Positions 10,525 through 21,202 of a stretch of 55,471 nt of DNA are shown one piece after another. The notes beneath the pieces were generated by a model that ran no database searches, was not told the DNA's origin, and worked only from the letters and a program-made list of their open reading frames with translations. The number at the start of each line of letters is the position of its first letter. Position 1 is the stretch's first letter. The position numbers were made by a program, and so were the translations under genes. The DNA comes from Bacteroidia bacterium (lineage in GTDB: Bacteria; Bacteroidota; Bacteroidia; B-17B0; Aurantibacillaceae): contig JAOAIP010000050.1 of NCBI GenBank assembly GCA_026414605.1, positions 1 through 55,471 of the forward strand, given 5' to 3'.

Positions 10525-13287
10525 ATGAAAAAATTTCTATTCTTTGGATTGTTATTTATTGTTACTCAACTATTCTTAAACGCACAAGTATTTTGGGTGG
10601 AAAATTTTGGAACAGGATGTTCTCAAGGACAACAAGCCAGCGGAACAGTAGCCACACCTACTAATGGTGCATGGTCAGTATCCAGTACAGGTACCAACGA
10701 CCCTTACGCTAACGAATGGTTCATAAGTGCCACAGAAGCAGGTATGGGTGCAGGTAATTGTGGTGACGGCTGCTTAAACAATGCTTCTCTTACCAATAGA
10801 ACTTTGCACATTGGGAATATCGCTATATCAGGATTAGGAATTCCTGCTGATCAAGGAGCGGCTTATGGCGAAGGCGCTTGTGGATTTGGATTTTGTACAA
10901 ATACCAACAAAAGAGCAGAATCCCCAACAATTAATTGTACAGGATATAGTAATATCACTTTGTCATTTAATTATATCCAAGAAGGTACCGCAGGGTCGGA
11001 CTATACCGAACTTATGTATTTTGATGGATCTACTTGGAACTCTTTGGGGAATTTACCTGCTACTAATAATACTGCTTGTAATCCACAAGGATTTTGGACA
11101 AACTTTACTATCGTTTTACCTTCCTCTGCAAATAATAATCCTAATGTCAAAATTGGTTTTAGATGGCAAAATGTAGATGACGGAGTGGCTACAGATCCTT
11201 CTTTCGCAGTCGATGACATTCAACTGAGTGGAACTCTTTCTACAATAAATTTAACTTTAACCGTAAACCCATCTACTGTTTGTGTAGGTGGCGTAGTTAC
11301 TGCTACAGCCAATACAGGTACTACCACAGTAACAGGTTATACTTGGACTTCTAATCCTCCTGGACCTACTTTCTCTCCACCATCTGCTTCAATAACTACA
11401 ATATCTTTTACAAATGCAGGAACATACTCAATTAGTGTTTTGGTATCTGATGGAACGAATACTGCAAGTGCTACACAAACCATTGTAGTTTCTCCAAGTC
11501 CTACTATTACCTTAAGTTCAACTGGAAATACTATTTGCCCTAACGGCAATACTACCTTAACAGCAATAGGTGCAAACAATTACACTTGGGCACCATCTTC
11601 ATCACTTAGTTCTTCTACAGGTTCTGCTGTTATTGCTTCACCAACCATAAACACTACTTATACGGTAACAGGTTCAAATGCTTTTGGTTGTACTGCTAAC
11701 GCTACTATTAATGTAGTCATTGGTCCTCCCTTCACTGCTTCTATTACTCCAAATTCTGCTACAACCTGCGTTGGGGGGGCATCTATTAACTTAACCGCCA
11801 CTGGCAATACCGCTTATGGGGCTATCAACTACAACTGGTCGCCTTCAACAGGATTAAATACCACTATGGGACCATTAGTAGCCGCTTCTCCAACGGCTAC
11901 TACAGTGTATACCGTCATAGCGTCGGCGGGTTCTTGTACTGCTGCTGCTACCACTACTATTACTGTAACACCACCTCCGCCATTTACCGTAACCCCTACT
12001 AACACTGTTCTTTGTCAAGGTTCCTCTATAAGTTACACTGCAACAGGTTTAAATACTTATACTTGGAGTCCTGCTTTCACATTAAGTAGTTCTACAGGTA
12101 GTGTTGTTACTGCAAGCCCAACTGTTACAACTACATATACAGTGATTGGTAAAGATGCAAATGGGTGCTTATCTAATCCACAATTAATAACATTGACTGT
12201 AGTTCCTGTTCCATCTGCTACTGCTATTTTAACTACTCCTTTAGGAAATGATTCTATTTGCGGAGGAACTACGGGTACATTAAGTGTCAATACATCAACG
12301 CCTCCAACTGGTTTTTCATATAACTATACTTGGACTACTACACCTTCTTATACCAATACCTTTCTTGTACCACCTAATTTTCAGCAAATTGCTTTTTTAC
12401 CACCCACCCCTAATCCAACCACTACTATTACCTACTCCGTACAAGTAGCATATTCTACTTTATCTACTTGTGTGAGTCCTCCTTCTGTTGTTACTGTTAC
12501 AGTTATTAACTGCAATCCACCTGTAGCCAGTTTTACTACCATTCCCGCTAATGATACTATTTGTACAGGTCAATGCTTAGTATTTATGAATACTTCTACT
12601 GGTGGACAACCTCAAACCGTACAATGGAGTGTTCCTGGTGCAACGCCCAATACTTTCTCCGGCGATTTTCCACAATTTTGCTTCCCCGTACCAGGAAACT
12701 ATACTGTCTTCATAAAAGTAACCAACAACTGGGGTGCTGATAGTACAATAGTTCCAAACTACATTCACGTAGTAGATACCCCTAATGTTGTAGGAATACG
12801 AGATACGTCTATTAACTTTGGCGATTGTGTAACCCTTTATGGTACTCAAGCATCTTATTATTCTTGGACAGGACCGAATGGATTTTCCTGTTTAGGTTGT
12901 GATACCATAACACCTTGTAATCTTACAGAAACTTCTATTTTTTATGTAACAGGATATAATAGTAAAAATTGTAAAAGCATAGATACAGTAGTTGTAAAAG
13001 TTAATCCAGATTGTGGAGAGATGTTTATACCATCTGCCTTTTCTCCAAACGGAGATGGTGTAAATGATATTCTCTATGTCCGAGGACGATGTTTGAAAAA
13101 CTTTACACTTCAGATATTTAATCGTTGGGGTGAATTAGTATTTGAAACTTCAGACAAAAATATCGGCTGGGATGGAACTCAAAATGGACAAGCACTAAAT
13201 ACAGGTGTATTTGTTTACAAATTAGAAGGAACAACTTATGATAACAAACATTATATTCAAAAAGGTCATATTACTTTATTGAGATAA
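10525..13287 (+). CDS. Large T9SS cargo protein with Ig-like repeats and CHU_C C-terminus
   Basis: 920 residues. Signal peptide MKKFLFFGLLFIVTQLFLNAQ; an N-terminal region (about 22-240) resembling a carbohydrate-binding-like jelly roll with paired cysteines; then several Thr/Ser-rich Ig/PKD-like repeats of 75-90 residues, each with a conserved Cys, a YTWSP-like tryptophan and a TYTV strand; then the type B sorting domain with FIPSAFSPNGDGVNDILYV, IFNRWGELVFET, WDGTQNGQ and a final KGHITLLR. It is probably a surface or released adhesin of the gliding-motility-associated type. The PorP/SprF gene follows 41 nt downstream, the usual pairing for SprB-like cargo. No catalytic motif is seen. Confidence 0.92.
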   Translation: MKKFLFFGLLFIVTQLFLNAQVFWVENFGTGCSQGQQASGTVATPTNGAWSVSSTGTNDPYANEWFISATEAGMGAGNCGDGCLNNASLTNRTLHIGNIAISGLGIPADQGAAYGEGACGFGFCTNTNKRAESPTINCTGYSNITLSFNYIQEGTAGSDYTELMYFDGSTWNSLGNLPATNNTACNPQGFWTNFTIVLPSSANNNPNVKIGFRWQNVDDGVATDPSFAVDDIQLSGTLSTINLTLTVNPSTVCVGGVVTATANTGTTTVTGYTWTSNPPGPTFSPPSASITTISFTNAGTYSISVLVSDGTNTASATQTIVVSPSPTITLSSTGNTICPNGNTTLTAIGANNYTWAPSSSLSSSTGSAVIASPTINTTYTVTGSNAFGCTANATINVVIGPPFTASITPNSATTCVGGASINLTATGNTAYGAINYNWSPSTGLNTTMGPLVAASPTATTVYTVIASAGSCTAAATTTITVTPPPPFTVTPTNTVLCQGSSISYTATGLNTYTWSPAFTLSSSTGSVVTASPTVTTTYTVIGKDANGCLSNPQLITLTVVPVPSATAILTTPLGNDSICGGTTGTLSVNTSTPPTGFSYNYTWTTTPSYTNTFLVPPNFQQIAFLPPTPNPTTTITYSVQVAYSTLSTCVSPPSVVTVTVINCNPPVASFTTIPANDTICTGQCLVFMNTSTGGQPQTVQWSVPGATPNTFSGDFPQFCFPVPGNYTVFIKVTNNWGADSTIVPNYIHVVDTPNVVGIRDTSINFGDCVTLYGTQASYYSWTGPNGFSCLGCDTITPCNLTETSIFYVTGYNSKNCKSIDTVVVKVNPDCGEMFIPSAFSPNGDGVNDILYVRGRCLKNFTLQIFNRWGELVFETSDKNIGWDGTQNGQALNTGVFVYKLEGTTYDNKHYIQKGHITLLR

Positions 13288-18192: not shown

Positions 18193-18321
18193 GTAAATTT
18201 ATAGACAAATCTCTATAATTAACACACTAAATGTTGATTTTTCACAACAATTTAAATCAATGACAATCATAAACTTAAAAAATTTTTATCATAAAGATTT
18301 AAACCTTTGTCAGGAATTCGT

Positions 18322-18329
18322 TATTTTTG
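18322..18329 (+). promoter_or_regulatory. Candidate -7 element for the bufferin-like precursor gene
   Basis: TATTTTTG fits TAnnTTTG, 33 nt before the start codon. The nearest TTTG is only 12 nt upstream, so this may not be a housekeeping promoter. Because an ECF sigma factor is in the operon, the segment AAACC..CGTTA (18301-18323) deserves testing as an ECF promoter, although I do not know that factor's consensus. Confidence 0.3.
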
Positions 18330-18362
18330 TAACTAATTATTAAACTAATAAAATCTACCACT

Positions 18363-18752
18363 ATGGAAAAGAAAAAAAGAAATCTGATTGCCAGTGCCGT
18401 AGCCGCTGCATCAGTAGTTGCATTAAGCAACATCAATGCTTCCAACAACAGCATTACCTTCAACACCCTTGGTTCAGGTTCAGAAGTCCGTTCTGAAATT
18501 TTAAGCAATAACGGGCTTTCTAAACTTATCAATGACTTAAAATGTGGTGAAGATAAAGCATCTACTAACACCGAAAAAGCCAAAGGCAAAGAAGGTAAGT
18601 GCGGTGAAGGTAAATGCGGCGAGAAAAAAGCAAAAGGTAAAGAAGGTAAATGTGGTGAAGGTAAATGTGGCGAAAAAAAAGCCAAAGGTAAAGAAGGTAA
18701 ATGTGGCGAAGGCAAGTGTGGTGAGAAAAAAACAAAAGAACAACCAAAGTAG
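18363..18752 (+). CDS. bufA: Bufferin/Hvf-like RiPP precursor with six EGKCG motifs
   Basis: 129 residues. A Sec signal peptide (KKKRNLIASAVAAASVVALS, ending near NAS), a linker of about 45 residues with C61, then three exact 17-residue units KAKGKEGKCGEGKCGEK (72-122). These give six EGKCG cores (C80, 85, 97, 102, 114, 119) and a short KTKEQPK tail. In the Hvf/bufferin families, EGKCG cysteines are modified by an MNIO enzyme with a DUF2063 partner to heterocyclic or thioamide groups that bind copper. The same partner genes lie downstream, which strongly supports this reading. The product should be a periplasmic or exported metal-sequestering peptide. Copper as the metal is inferred. A strong terminator follows. 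Confidence 0.9.
   Translation: MEKKKRNLIASAVAAASVVALSNINASNNSITFNTLGSGSEVRSEILSNNGLSKLINDLKCGEDKASTNTEKAKGKEGKCGEGKCGEKKAKGKEGKCGEGKCGEKKAKGKEGKCGEGKCGEKKTKEQPK
18576..18728 (+). repeat. 51-bp in-frame tandem repeat, three units, in the RiPP precursor
   Basis: Three 17-codon units encode identical peptides. Units 1 and 2 differ at six codons and units 2 and 3 at six codons, all synonymous third-position changes. That is direct evidence of selection on the core peptide sequence and argues against recent slippage. Confidence 0.93.
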
Positions 18753-18763
18753 TCCTTTTATCA

Positions 18764-18801
18764 TTCAAGTCCCCATCAAAACGATGGGGATTTGAATTTT
18801 T
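18764..18801 (+). terminator. Strong terminator between precursor gene and sigma-factor gene
   Basis: A 14-bp stem (one G-U) from TTCAAGTCCCCATC and GATGGGGATTTGAA around loop AAAAC, followed by TTTTTC. It lies between bufA and the sigma gene 18 nt later, so readthrough would give much precursor mRNA and little maturation mRNA. No other clear promoter was seen for the downstream genes. Confidence 0.9.
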
Positions 18802-18819
18802 CAAAAACTATAATAATTT

Positions 18820-19398
18820 ATGGCTAATCCATCAAATGATATTAAAACACATTTCAAAGATATTATTGAAACAAACTACAAAAAGTTTTACAAACACGCC
18901 TGTATTCAATTAGGATGTCAAGATACGGCAAAAGATATTGTTCAAGAAGCATTCATTACGGCTTATGAAAAACTACATACTTTTCAACAAAAGTCATCAT
19001 TGGAAACGTGGATTTTTGGAATACTCAATAATAAGATATTAGAACATTTCAGAAATAACAAGAAAAGCCCAACTCGTTTTGATACAGAATTTGAAAGTAT
19101 TTTATTCAATAAAAATGGAAGTTGGAAAAAAGAATGGATATCCAACGACTTATTCCCTATTGATCATAAAGAAAATGAAAAAGAAACAAAAAAGATTCGT
19201 CAATTTTTGATGGACTGCTTAAATGCACTTAAAGAAAAACATAAACAAGTTGTCTTATTAAGATATTACTTAAATAAAAAAACGGAAGAAATTTGTGAAG
19301 TATGTCAAATGAGTACAGATAATGTTTGGCAAATCCTTCATAGAAGCAAACTTCAACTAAAAATCTGCTTACAATCCAAACAAAAATCTAATGATTAA
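18820..19398 (+). CDS. ECF-type sigma-70 family RNA polymerase sigma factor
   Basis: 192 residues. Region 2: DTAKDIVQEAFITAYEKL near 33-50 and SSLETWIFGILNNKILEHFR near 58-77. Region 4: LKEKHKQVVLLRYYLNKKTEE near 136-156 and MSTDNVWQILHRSKLQL near 163-179, the helix-turn-helix that reads the -35 box. Region 3 is absent, as in ECF factors. It lies just after the RiPP precursor and overlaps the next small gene by 8 nt. It probably activates this operon in response to metal or envelope stress, as sigma factors do for some bufferin operons; the target is inferred. Confidence 0.9.
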   Translation: MANPSNDIKTHFKDIIETNYKKFYKHACIQLGCQDTAKDIVQEAFITAYEKLHTFQQKSSLETWIFGILNNKILEHFRNNKKSPTRFDTEFESILFNKNGSWKKEWISNDLFPIDHKENEKETKKIRQFLMDCLNALKEKHKQVVLLRYYLNKKTEEICEVCQMSTDNVWQILHRSKLQLKICLQSKQKSND

Positions 19399-19630
19399 TT
19401 GCAGAAAATATACTCGCTACCTTCATAAATCTGAAATTCAGCCCTTGCAGTGGTATGAAAAAATTCTAATGCACTATCATTATACTATTTGCAAATGGTG
19501 TAAAAAATATACTTATGAAAATGAACAATTAAACCATTATATTCATACTACTATTGATGAAATAATGGATTTAAATGATCAGGAAATAGAACATCAAAAA
19601 AACGAATTATTACTAAAATTAAATTTATGA
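19391..19630 (+). CDS. Small zinc-type anti-sigma factor candidate
   Basis: 79 residues, soluble, no signal peptide or membrane helix. It contains H30-x3-C34-x2-C37, the zinc anti-sigma (ZAS) HxxxCxxC signature, plus C4 near the N-terminus, followed by an acidic helical tail. It overlaps the sigma gene stop by 8 nt and the MNIO gene start by 4 nt (ATGA), so translation is likely coupled and the gene is real despite its size. Inference: it binds and restrains the ECF factor, with a cysteine/histidine site that copper or oxidants could disrupt. It lacks the transmembrane helix of many anti-sigma proteins, pointing to a cytosolic signal. Confidence 0.72.
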   Translation: MINCRKYTRYLHKSEIQPLQWYEKILMHYHYTICKWCKKYTYENEQLNHYIHTTIDEIMDLNDQEIEHQKNELLLKLNL

Positions 19631-20460
19631 TTGGCATTGGCTATAGAAAGGACTTTGCAGAAGAATGGTATCATCAACCTGAACTTTTGAATGCTGACTT
19701 CATTGAAGTAGCCCCTGAAAATTGGATGAATGTAGGTGGCTATTGGAAAAAATTGTTGGATGAAAAACTTCGTTACTATCCTTTATTTACGCATGGTTTA
19801 TCATTGTCTATTGGAAGTCCAGACGAACTGGATGTTGAGTTTTTAAAGAAATTGAAACATTTTCTCAATCAAACACAAGCCAAATTTTATTCTGAACATT
19901 TAAGTTTTGCTAAATGTGATAATGCTCATTTGTACGATTTACTTCCCATACCATTTACAGAAGATGCTGTCAAACACGTTTCACAAAAAATCAAACAAAT
20001 ACAAGATTTTTTAGAAAGACCTTTAGTAATAGAAATCGTCAGTTATTATTCACCATTAGCCGCAGAGATGAAAGAAATAGAATTTATCAATGCTGTCTTA
20101 AGTGAAAGCAATTGTTTGTTGTTGTTGGATGTCAATAATGTGTATGTGAATAGTTTTAATCATCGCTATGATGCAAAAGAATTTATTCAACAATTACCCA
20201 AAGAAAAAGTGGCTTACATTCATATGGCAGGACATTTACAAATAGATGATGATTTAATCATTGATACACACGGCGAACCCATTATTGATCCTGTTTATGA
20301 ATTATTTGAATTTACATTGAATTGGCTTCAAAGACCTGTTCCTGTTTTATTAGAAAGGGACTTCAATATCCCCGAATTTCAAGATTTACAAAAAGAAATC
20401 AATCAACTAAAATACATTTTCAATAAAGTGCTACAAAAACAAAAAGAATATGTTGCTTAA
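19627..20460 (+). CDS. bufB: MNIO-family (DUF692) peptide-modifying iron enzyme, BufB/HvfB-like
   Basis: 277 residues, TIM-barrel DUF692/MNIO family. Likely metal ligands and active-site segments: FTHGLSLSIG (H56), YSEHLSF (H91), EIVSYY (E136), LLLDVNNVYVN (D168), YIHMAGH (H199, H203), DTHGEP (D213, H215) and LLERDFNIPEF (E243). MNIO enzymes use two or three iron ions and O2 to remodel cysteine in a precursor peptide; in Hvf/bufferin systems EGKCG cysteines are the substrate. Its neighbours are an EGKCG precursor upstream and a DUF2063 partner overlapping by 11 nt. Oddity: the usual Asn after the conserved Glu (EN..S) appears as Ile137. Confidence 0.93.
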   Translation: MIGIGYRKDFAEEWYHQPELLNADFIEVAPENWMNVGGYWKKLLDEKLRYYPLFTHGLSLSIGSPDELDVEFLKKLKHFLNQTQAKFYSEHLSFAKCDNAHLYDLLPIPFTEDAVKHVSQKIKQIQDFLERPLVIEIVSYYSPLAAEMKEIEFINAVLSESNCLLLLDVNNVYVNSFNHRYDAKEFIQQLPKEKVAYIHMAGHLQIDDDLIIDTHGEPIIDPVYELFEFTLNWLQRPVPVLLERDFNIPEFQDLQKEINQLKYIFNKVLQKQKEYVA

Positions 20461-21202
20461 ATCATCTACCTATCAACAACAATCTTTGTTAGCAGAATTT
20501 ACTCGCACGGGCAACGAAGAAATACTTAAACAACTAAAAGGAATAAATCATAAAGGAATAAAGTATTACAGACACCTGATATTTAATATCATTCAAGATG
20601 GTATTACAAATGCGTATCCTATATTGACAGATTTTTTGGGTGAACAAGAAATGAATAACTTAATACATCGTTTTTTTTCAAATCATCGTTGTCAAACGTA
20701 TCAAGTTTGGCAAATGCCCAAAGAATTCAAAGAATATGTGATAAAGCACGAATCCAATTTAATTGAAACCTATCCTTTTATCCCTGATTTATTGCTTTTT
20801 GAATGGATGGAAATTGAATTGTTTATGATGGAAGATGATGAAATTCCAAAGTATCAACCAACCGGCAATATCTTAAAGGACAAATTGGTATTAAATCCTG
20901 AAATTCAAATTTTATCAATGCAATATCCCGTGCATATTAAACATCCTAAATTGATTAAAAACAATGACAAAGGAATTTATTTTGTAGTACTGCACAGACA
21001 TCCCGAAACCAAAGAAATTATTTTTACCAACATTGATACTTTGTCTTTAAAAATAATTGAATTACTCTATAATGAAGAAAAAAACTTTGATGATTTACTG
21101 AATACTATTTTTGAAAAAACATCATTAAAAAATAAAAATGAACTTAAAAAATTTATACGAAATGCATTGGAAACAAAAATGATACTAGGTTTCAAACATT
21201 AA
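20450..21202 (+). CDS. bufC: DUF2063 (BufC/HvfC-like) RiPP maturation partner
   Basis: 250 residues. The N-terminal helical DUF2063 domain (1-100) shows QQQSLLAEFTRTGNEE, a YRHLIFNIIQDGITNAYPIL stretch and FFSNHRCQTYQVWQMPKEF, followed by FIPDLLLFEWMEIELFM and a C-terminal winged-helix-like region that probably holds the peptide leader. In known systems this protein binds the precursor and delivers it to the MNIO enzyme. It overlaps the MNIO gene by 11 nt and ends the operon. No DoxX-like fourth gene is present, unlike many bufferin operons. Confidence 0.9.
   Translation: MLLKSSTYQQQSLLAEFTRTGNEEILKQLKGINHKGIKYYRHLIFNIIQDGITNAYPILTDFLGEQEMNNLIHRFFSNHRCQTYQVWQMPKEFKEYVIKHESNLIETYPFIPDLLLFEWMEIELFMMEDDEIPKYQPTGNILKDKLVLNPEIQILSMQYPVHIKHPKLIKNNDKGIYFVVLHRHPETKEIIFTNIDTLSLKIIELLYNEEKNFDDLLNTIFEKTSLKNKNELKKFIRNALETKMILGFKH

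Follow-up and report, generated by a model that had tools for sequence, protein, structure and literature searches.

We analyzed a 55,471-nt stretch of DNA from a Bacteroidia bacterium (contig JAOAIP010000050.1; hereafter the window), which carries five consecutive genes on one strand: hvfA, encoding a precursor peptide, the genes of an extracytoplasmic function (ECF) sigma factor and of a small, soluble, zinc-type (ZAS) anti-sigma factor, and hvfB and hvfC, encoding two modifying proteins (Table 1). These genes very likely form an Hvf/oxazolin-type operon for a ribosomally synthesized and post-translationally modified peptide (RiPP), run by its own switch of the sigma-E/MseR kind. A preliminary description had proposed this gene order, with overlaps of 8 nt between sigma and ZAS, 4 nt between ZAS and hvfB and 11 nt between hvfB and hvfC, and all of these are present as open reading frames (ORFs). 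Its picture of a tightly coupled Hvf-type RiPP operon with a built-in ECF sigma factor and a soluble zinc-type anti-sigma factor is likewise supported. The full set, in this order, was also found in two further species of the genus to which the window belongs, a recurrence that argues against a chance assembly. The observation behind the preliminary description is therefore correct, and its interpretation is partly supported.

The gene content identifies the operon class. The precursor has a predicted Sec-type signal peptide, and its six EGKCG cores are arranged as three tandem repeats; it matches the HvfA-family metallophore repeat model NF050137 well above cut-off (5.8e-19; 67.5 bits against a cut-off of 19.5). 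The MNIO (DUF692) enzyme, which is the single MNIO of the window genome (a 2.48 Mb draft), exceeds the cut-off of the HvfB model NF003818 (381.3 against 360 bits) and stays below that of the BufB model (269 against 310 bits). Because it passes the former and fails the latter, we regard the operon as Hvf/oxazolin-like, and the label "bufferin" that it had been given does not hold. In the PDB, the enzyme matches the DUF692 structure 3bww (7e-68); its nearest named match, at 70% identity, is from Sediminibacterium, which places the organism in the Bacteroidota. HvfC combines PF09836 (DUF2063; 7.7e-14) with PF22106 (NGO1945_C; 5.9e-9), both over cut-off. As had been claimed, no DoxX-like HvfX gene was found after hvfC within the window. 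In both sister genomes (G001 and G002), hvfC is followed by a DoxX gene, and a DoxX-like neighbor cluster, frequent without being universal, occurs at 38 of the 80 named or metagenome-assembled genome loci whose neighborhoods we read together with those of the window's relatives. The missing gene in the window probably reflects a loss.

The 79-residue protein encoded after the sigma factor gene contains a complete zinc pattern, C4-X25-H30-X3-C34-X2-C37, which extends the HxxxCxxC motif reported previously. As a small soluble protein encoded right after an ECF sigma factor gene, it conforms to the ZAS definition, C/H-X23-26-H-X3-C-X2-C. It had been proposed that homologues lacking HxxxCxxC would speak against the switch; in 20 homologues, 11–61% identical to the window protein, Cys4, His30, Cys34 and Cys37 are invariant, and they are the only residues that are. 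The same four positions occur in meningococcal MseR, whose three cysteines matter for its anti-sigma activity (PMC2893595). The score against the antisigmaE model NF052368 (36.8 bits, E 2.5e-9; 41.2 bits in a sister species) lies below the curated cut-off of 50, so we class the protein as ZAS-type by motif and context rather than as a member of that family. An AlphaFold2 model (pLDDT 88) is all-helical, with four helices; its best structural matches in the PDB are both weak (Z 6.6 and 3.7; Foldseek E 5.6) and come from anti-sigma factors, RsiW and RslA. A PDB sequence search with the ZAS profile returned RsiW only, at E 0.086 and amid chance matches.

Across loci, a bipartite site, TGT(A/C)AGG-N15-CG(T/A)CTA, recurs upstream of hvfA. 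We scanned for it without gaps, permitting spacings of 14–17 nt and with a maximum score of 13, as a MAFFT alignment of the promoter regions misplaced gaps. Nearly all good matches have a spacing of 15 nt, despite the permitted range. A score of at least 10 was reached at 39 of 52 hvf loci with a sigma-ZAS pair, compared with 1.5% of shuffles, and at 10 of 37 loci without a neighboring pair, several of which are truncated. Wrongly chosen start codons explain several of the loci without a match. Most relatives carry TGTAAGG-N15-CGTCTA, and the Bacteroidota site agrees in element and spacing with the published sigma-E consensus of Neisseria (GTMAGBWTT, 12–13 nt, CGTCTAAH). The window's own copy has a lower score in this strict scan and is the best site of its upstream region for the genus form; the sister species have TGTCAGG-N15-CATCTA and TGTCAGG-N15-TAACTA, with the spacing of the window. 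Our first candidate, TGTAAC-N20-TCTAC, is unique in the window genome but departs from the conserved spacing, and was dropped in favor of TGTCAGG-N15. The transcription start-site map of Flavobacterium psychrophilum contains a single ECF motif, linked to type IX secretion genes, and was of no help here. The same promoter element also lies upstream of an hvfA ORF (at ~4506 of locus L098) in the gammaproteobacterium Thiohalophilus, where no sigma-ZAS pair is adjacent.

The arrangement of the operon differs between the window's genus and other lineages. Loci that combine sigma-ZAS with hvfA-hvfB-hvfC are common among Bacteroidota and Ignavibacteria. The sigma-ZAS pair usually stands first in them, and hvfA-sigma-ZAS-hvfB-hvfC occurs, among the loci read, only in the window and the two sister genomes. 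In the tree, the window's genus forms a single clade (support 100/99) nested among lineages in which sigma-ZAS comes first, and on this ground the hvfA-first order is probably derived. With hvfA in front, both the sigma factor and its anti-sigma factor would therefore stand under the sigma factor's own target promoter. One locus titled Beijerinckiaceae (CAJCIQ010000232.1) encodes an MNIO that groups with Chitinophagaceae, pointing to a misbinned contig or a transfer.

The site also occurs inside the sigma factor gene of many loci, where its -10 mostly ends 70–90 nt upstream of the ZAS start (for example, L060:3916-3943 and L043:699-726). There it is spelled by codons of the helix-turn-helix, TGT AAG GAA ... 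NCG TCT AAY (C-K-E-L-x-I-x-S/P/A/T-S-N), and it is present in 42 of 53 sigma factor genes. The lysine codon of the site is AAG in 43 of 44 cases, where 13 would be expected from codon use; the other lysine codons of the same genes comprise 238 AAG and 670 AAA. Seven places further, the codon has the form NCG in 43 of 49 genes (9.6 expected), although the residue varies between Ser, Pro, Ala and Thr. Among 186 codon columns, the NCG and TGT codons rank as the two most constrained at synonymous positions (z 12.0 and 8.1), and the TCT and AAG codons rank fifth and sixth. Furthermore, the choice between CAG (Gln) and AAG (Lys) in the sigma factor gene goes with that between TGTCAGG and TGTAAGG before hvfA (32:0 versus 1:5; Fisher p 1.2e-5, relatedness not corrected). 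None of the sigma factor genes of the three species of the window's genus contains the intragenic site, which appears to have been lost there.

Taken together, these patterns make it likely that in Bacteroidota the codons for the helix-turn-helix with which the sigma factor reads the -35 element double as a promoter for that same sigma factor, codon choice being held by the DNA signal and Lys/Gln covarying with the A/C of the external site. In the same reading, relocation of sigma-ZAS to a place downstream of the hvfA promoter, together with loss of the internal copy, turned negative feedback into an autoregulated operon in the window's genus. In most other Bacteroidota, the anti-sigma factor seems to have its own sigma-dependent promoter, which would amount to negative feedback; in the window's genus it may no longer need one, since the pair now follows the hvfA promoter. 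If this holds, protein code and promoter code coincide in a DNA-reading domain, and the three species lacking the intragenic site provide a natural control.

Further observations concern sigma factor genes. A second, smaller cluster of synonymous constraint lies in region 2 (alignment columns 184–205; z 7.1 and 5.9), where Gln is encoded by CAG in 41 of 49 cases; no known element accounts for this region 2 cluster. Sigma-ZAS pairs located away from hvf (L213, L226, L233, L237 and L249) also contain the intragenic site, with other genes downstream. In another proteobacterium, a sigma-ZAS-hvf locus carries an intragenic TGTAAGG-N15-CGTCCA (L106:4217-4244).

To describe the regulon, we scanned 87 genomes of the family with a strict form of the site and used the reversed motif as a control, obtaining 66 matches compared with 21. 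Among the sites read in context, 19 lie inside sigma factor genes, and 37 of the other 42 are located no more than ~60 nt before an ORF start. Ten proteins encoded downstream were scanned. Six of them are MsrA and/or MsrB; the remaining four are an AhpC/TSA protein, a cyclopropane fatty-acid synthase, an Omp28-like protein and a P460-like secreted protein. Since MsrA/MsrB follow the site, a regulon of Msr plus hvf appears common to Neisseria, Haemophilus and the Bacteroidota relatives, with single targets not assignable to one sigma factor because some genomes carry two such sigma-ZAS pairs. In the window genome (G000), a convincing promoter copy was found only before hvf. In the sister species G002, only three sites genome-wide differ from the genus form at no more than one position, all intergenic and within 9 kb: one before hvf, one before a mercury operon (ArsR-MerTP-lipoprotein-MerA, with MerTP and MerA matches over cut-off) and one before a thioredoxin-containing operon. 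The sites of the latter two operons lie on the minus strand at 11580-11607 and 14723-14750 of L132 (G002:C2:203000-222000). Sites at G000:C5, C15, C31 and C58 and at G002:C2:163232 fall within predicted ORFs and were not counted. Given the operons that follow the G002 sites, the switch appears to have been recruited for thiol-redox and soft-metal genes. In the window's genus it apparently acts on the operon that encodes it, with few if any further targets in the window genome.

We propose the following mechanism. In the resting state, the ECF sigma factor would be bound by the small cytosolic zinc protein. Once the zinc-thiol site of that protein is oxidized or takes up a thiophilic metal, the sigma factor would be released and would direct RNA polymerase to the promoter before hvfA. 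Transcription would then yield the precursor, more sigma and anti-sigma factor, and the two modifying proteins. HvfB and HvfC would convert the core cysteines to copper-binding 5-thiooxazoles, and the exported peptide would bind copper, and perhaps other soft metals, in the periplasm. In this scheme, the binding of sigma by ZAS, the use of the promoter by the sigma factor, the signal, the modification and the copper binding are all predicted from homologous systems and sequence. A hairpin between hvfA and the sigma factor gene (15-bp stem; none of 200 shuffles is as strong) has counterparts of different sequence at the same position in the sister species (z -4.0 and -2.8). It may stabilize the hvfA message or act as an attenuator that lowers read-through, which would give much precursor and little sigma factor and enzyme.

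Some results count against this proposal. The -10 element of the window is weakened, reading TAACTA for CGTCTA. Two of the encoded proteins stay below the cut-offs of their equivalog models: the precursor scores 54.6 bits against the full-length HvfA model NF050188 (cut-off 95), and HvfC scores 120.7 bits (8.6e-35) against NF050145 (cut-off 142). Meningococcal MseR gave no response to the oxidants tested (PMC2893595). The regions upstream of msrA and msrB in the window genome contain no site above shuffles, so the oxidant link rests on relatives.

The nature of the signal is where an alternative has most weight. The switch could be a dedicated metal sensor, in line with the direct metal sensing suggested in the preliminary description. 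The zinc of ZAS would then be displaced directly by a thiophilic ion, be it Cu(I) or, for instance, Hg(II), and the sigma factor freed, with oxidants playing a minor part in the genus. A sigma factor that looks dedicated to hvf in the window genome fits this idea, as do the three near-perfect copies in G002, one of them at the mercury operon, and the literature, which ties the operon class to copper and gold induction too. Yet in other genera of the family the same promoter class precedes msrA/msrB and a peroxiredoxin-like gene, the Haemophilus relative answers to HOCl/H2O2, no metal ligand is conserved besides the four found in every ZAS protein, and the mer operon is present in a single sister species. 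We therefore consider a dedicated metal sensor possible but rather unlikely. A signal from oxidants or thiol stress is more probable than one from soft metals; in relatives the site precedes msrA/msrB and thiol-redox genes, which favors such a signal over a dedicated copper sensor.

The two other alternatives concern the make-up of the operon. The sigma factor and ZAS could be passengers that moved into an hvf operon and act on other genes, as the pairs found away from hvf and the altered gene order of the window's genus might suggest. All three species of the genus nevertheless share the order, most of the Bacteroidota and Ignavibacteria loci found have sigma-ZAS next to hvf, and the hvfA promoter, with its constant 15-nt spacing, covaries with the intragenic copy; this makes a passenger role highly improbable. 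Still slightly less credible is a bufferin (Buf1/Buf2) system that happens to include a sigma factor, in the way that sigma plus NrsF occurs in many Buf1 clusters. The BufB model does match and sigma genes are known from Buf1 clusters, but it is the HvfB and not the BufB cut-off that is reached, no DUF2282 precursor was found among the profile matches of the operon proteins, and the anti-sigma factor is a soluble ZAS protein rather than NrsF. An Hvf-type operon under its own sigma-ZAS switch thus remains our preferred explanation.

Table 1. Position and basis of the features of the hvf operon in the window.
Feature	Position	Strand	Basis
hvfA precursor, 129 aa, six EGKCG cores	18363-18752	+	ORF and profile matches
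ECF sigma factor, 192 aa	18820-19398	+	Sigma70_r2 1.6e-13, Sigma70_r4_2 1e-10
Soluble zinc-type (ZAS) anti-sigma factor, 79 aa, Cys4/His30/Cys34/Cys37	19391-19630	+	motif, context, NF052368 2.5e-9
hvfB, MNIO (DUF692) enzyme, 277 aa	19627-20460	+	PF05114 8e-97; NF003818 381 bits
hvfC, DUF2063 + NGO1945_C partner protein, 250 aa	20450-21202	+	PF09836, PF22106
Predicted sigma-E-type promoter TGTCAGG-N15-TAACTA before hvfA	18308-18335	+	spacing kept in sisters; sequence scan
Hairpin between hvfA and sigma, 15-bp stem	18763-18797	+	-23.2 kcal/mol, z -6.1

Sigma-ZAS-hvf is common in Bacteroidota and Ignavibacteria, and its shared promoter makes regulons readable from sequence. The operon also joins two literatures, that on copper-binding 5-thiooxazole peptides and that on sigma-E/MseR oxidative-stress regulons, whose "hypothetical" targets are the same operon, and it gives the peptides a testable role as part of an oxidant or thiophilic-metal response.

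One of the closest known systems is sigma-E/MseR of Neisseria, which shares with the window an ECF sigma factor, a soluble ZAS protein with the same Cys/His positions, a matching promoter and autoregulation. Its operon NMB2140-NMB2145 contains rpoE and mseR together with a DoxX-like gene and genes for hypothetical proteins, and its expression rises 6- to 36-fold when mseR is lost (PMC2893595, PMC3240639). In Haemophilus, those hypothetical proteins correspond to the precursor, MNIO and DUF2063 proteins of hvf. The Neisseria order is doxX-...-rpoE-mseR, whereas the window has hvfA-sigma-ZAS-hvfB-hvfC without DoxX; msrAB is a sigma-E target in Neisseria and not in the window genome. In Haemophilus, the DoxX/periplasmic/UPF0276/DUF2063 cluster, now hvf, is induced by HOCl only with RpoE2, which is held by HrsE, a 67-aa cytoplasmic ZAS protein (PMC7907618), and HvfBC make 5-thiooxazoles on six cysteines of HvfA, within AEGKCGEGKCG motifs (PMC13419390). 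RpoE2/HrsE and hvfABCX thus resemble the window in the ZAS anti-sigma factor, the precursor-MNIO-DUF2063-DoxX cluster and the six-cysteine HvfA, but the genes of RpoE2 and HrsE are located away from hvf and not within the operon as in the window. As MseR (2010) and HrsE (2021) already control the homologous operon, a soluble ZAS switch on hvf is not new.

Other known systems share some of the features. Buf1 bufferins with sigma/NrsF (Caulobacter sigma-F type, PMC12452194) likewise combine MNIO, DUF2063 and a secreted cysteine-rich precursor with a nearby ECF sigma factor, but have a DUF2282 precursor and NrsF, neither of which was found in the window operon. Streptomyces SigR-RsrA has the same zinc-ligand spacing (RsrA Cys11/His37/Cys41/Cys44) in a disulfide-stress switch tied to thioredoxin and not to a RiPP. 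In Corynebacterium SigH-RshA, a SigH-dependent promoter inside sigH, with its start 62–66 nt before rshA, was found by experiment (PMC3489674); a promoter within a sigma factor gene is therefore not new as such. This layout resembles the one we infer for the Bacteroidota relatives, not for the window, and it differs in its promoter consensus, its occurrence in Actinobacteria and the lack of a RiPP. In a 2025 survey, sigma genes were reported from Buf1 clusters but not from Buf2 clusters, and none was listed for EGKCG clusters, which were mostly from Pseudomonadota. Switch and operon are thus both of known kinds, while their arrangement, the shared promoter and the Bacteroidota-wide spread look undescribed.

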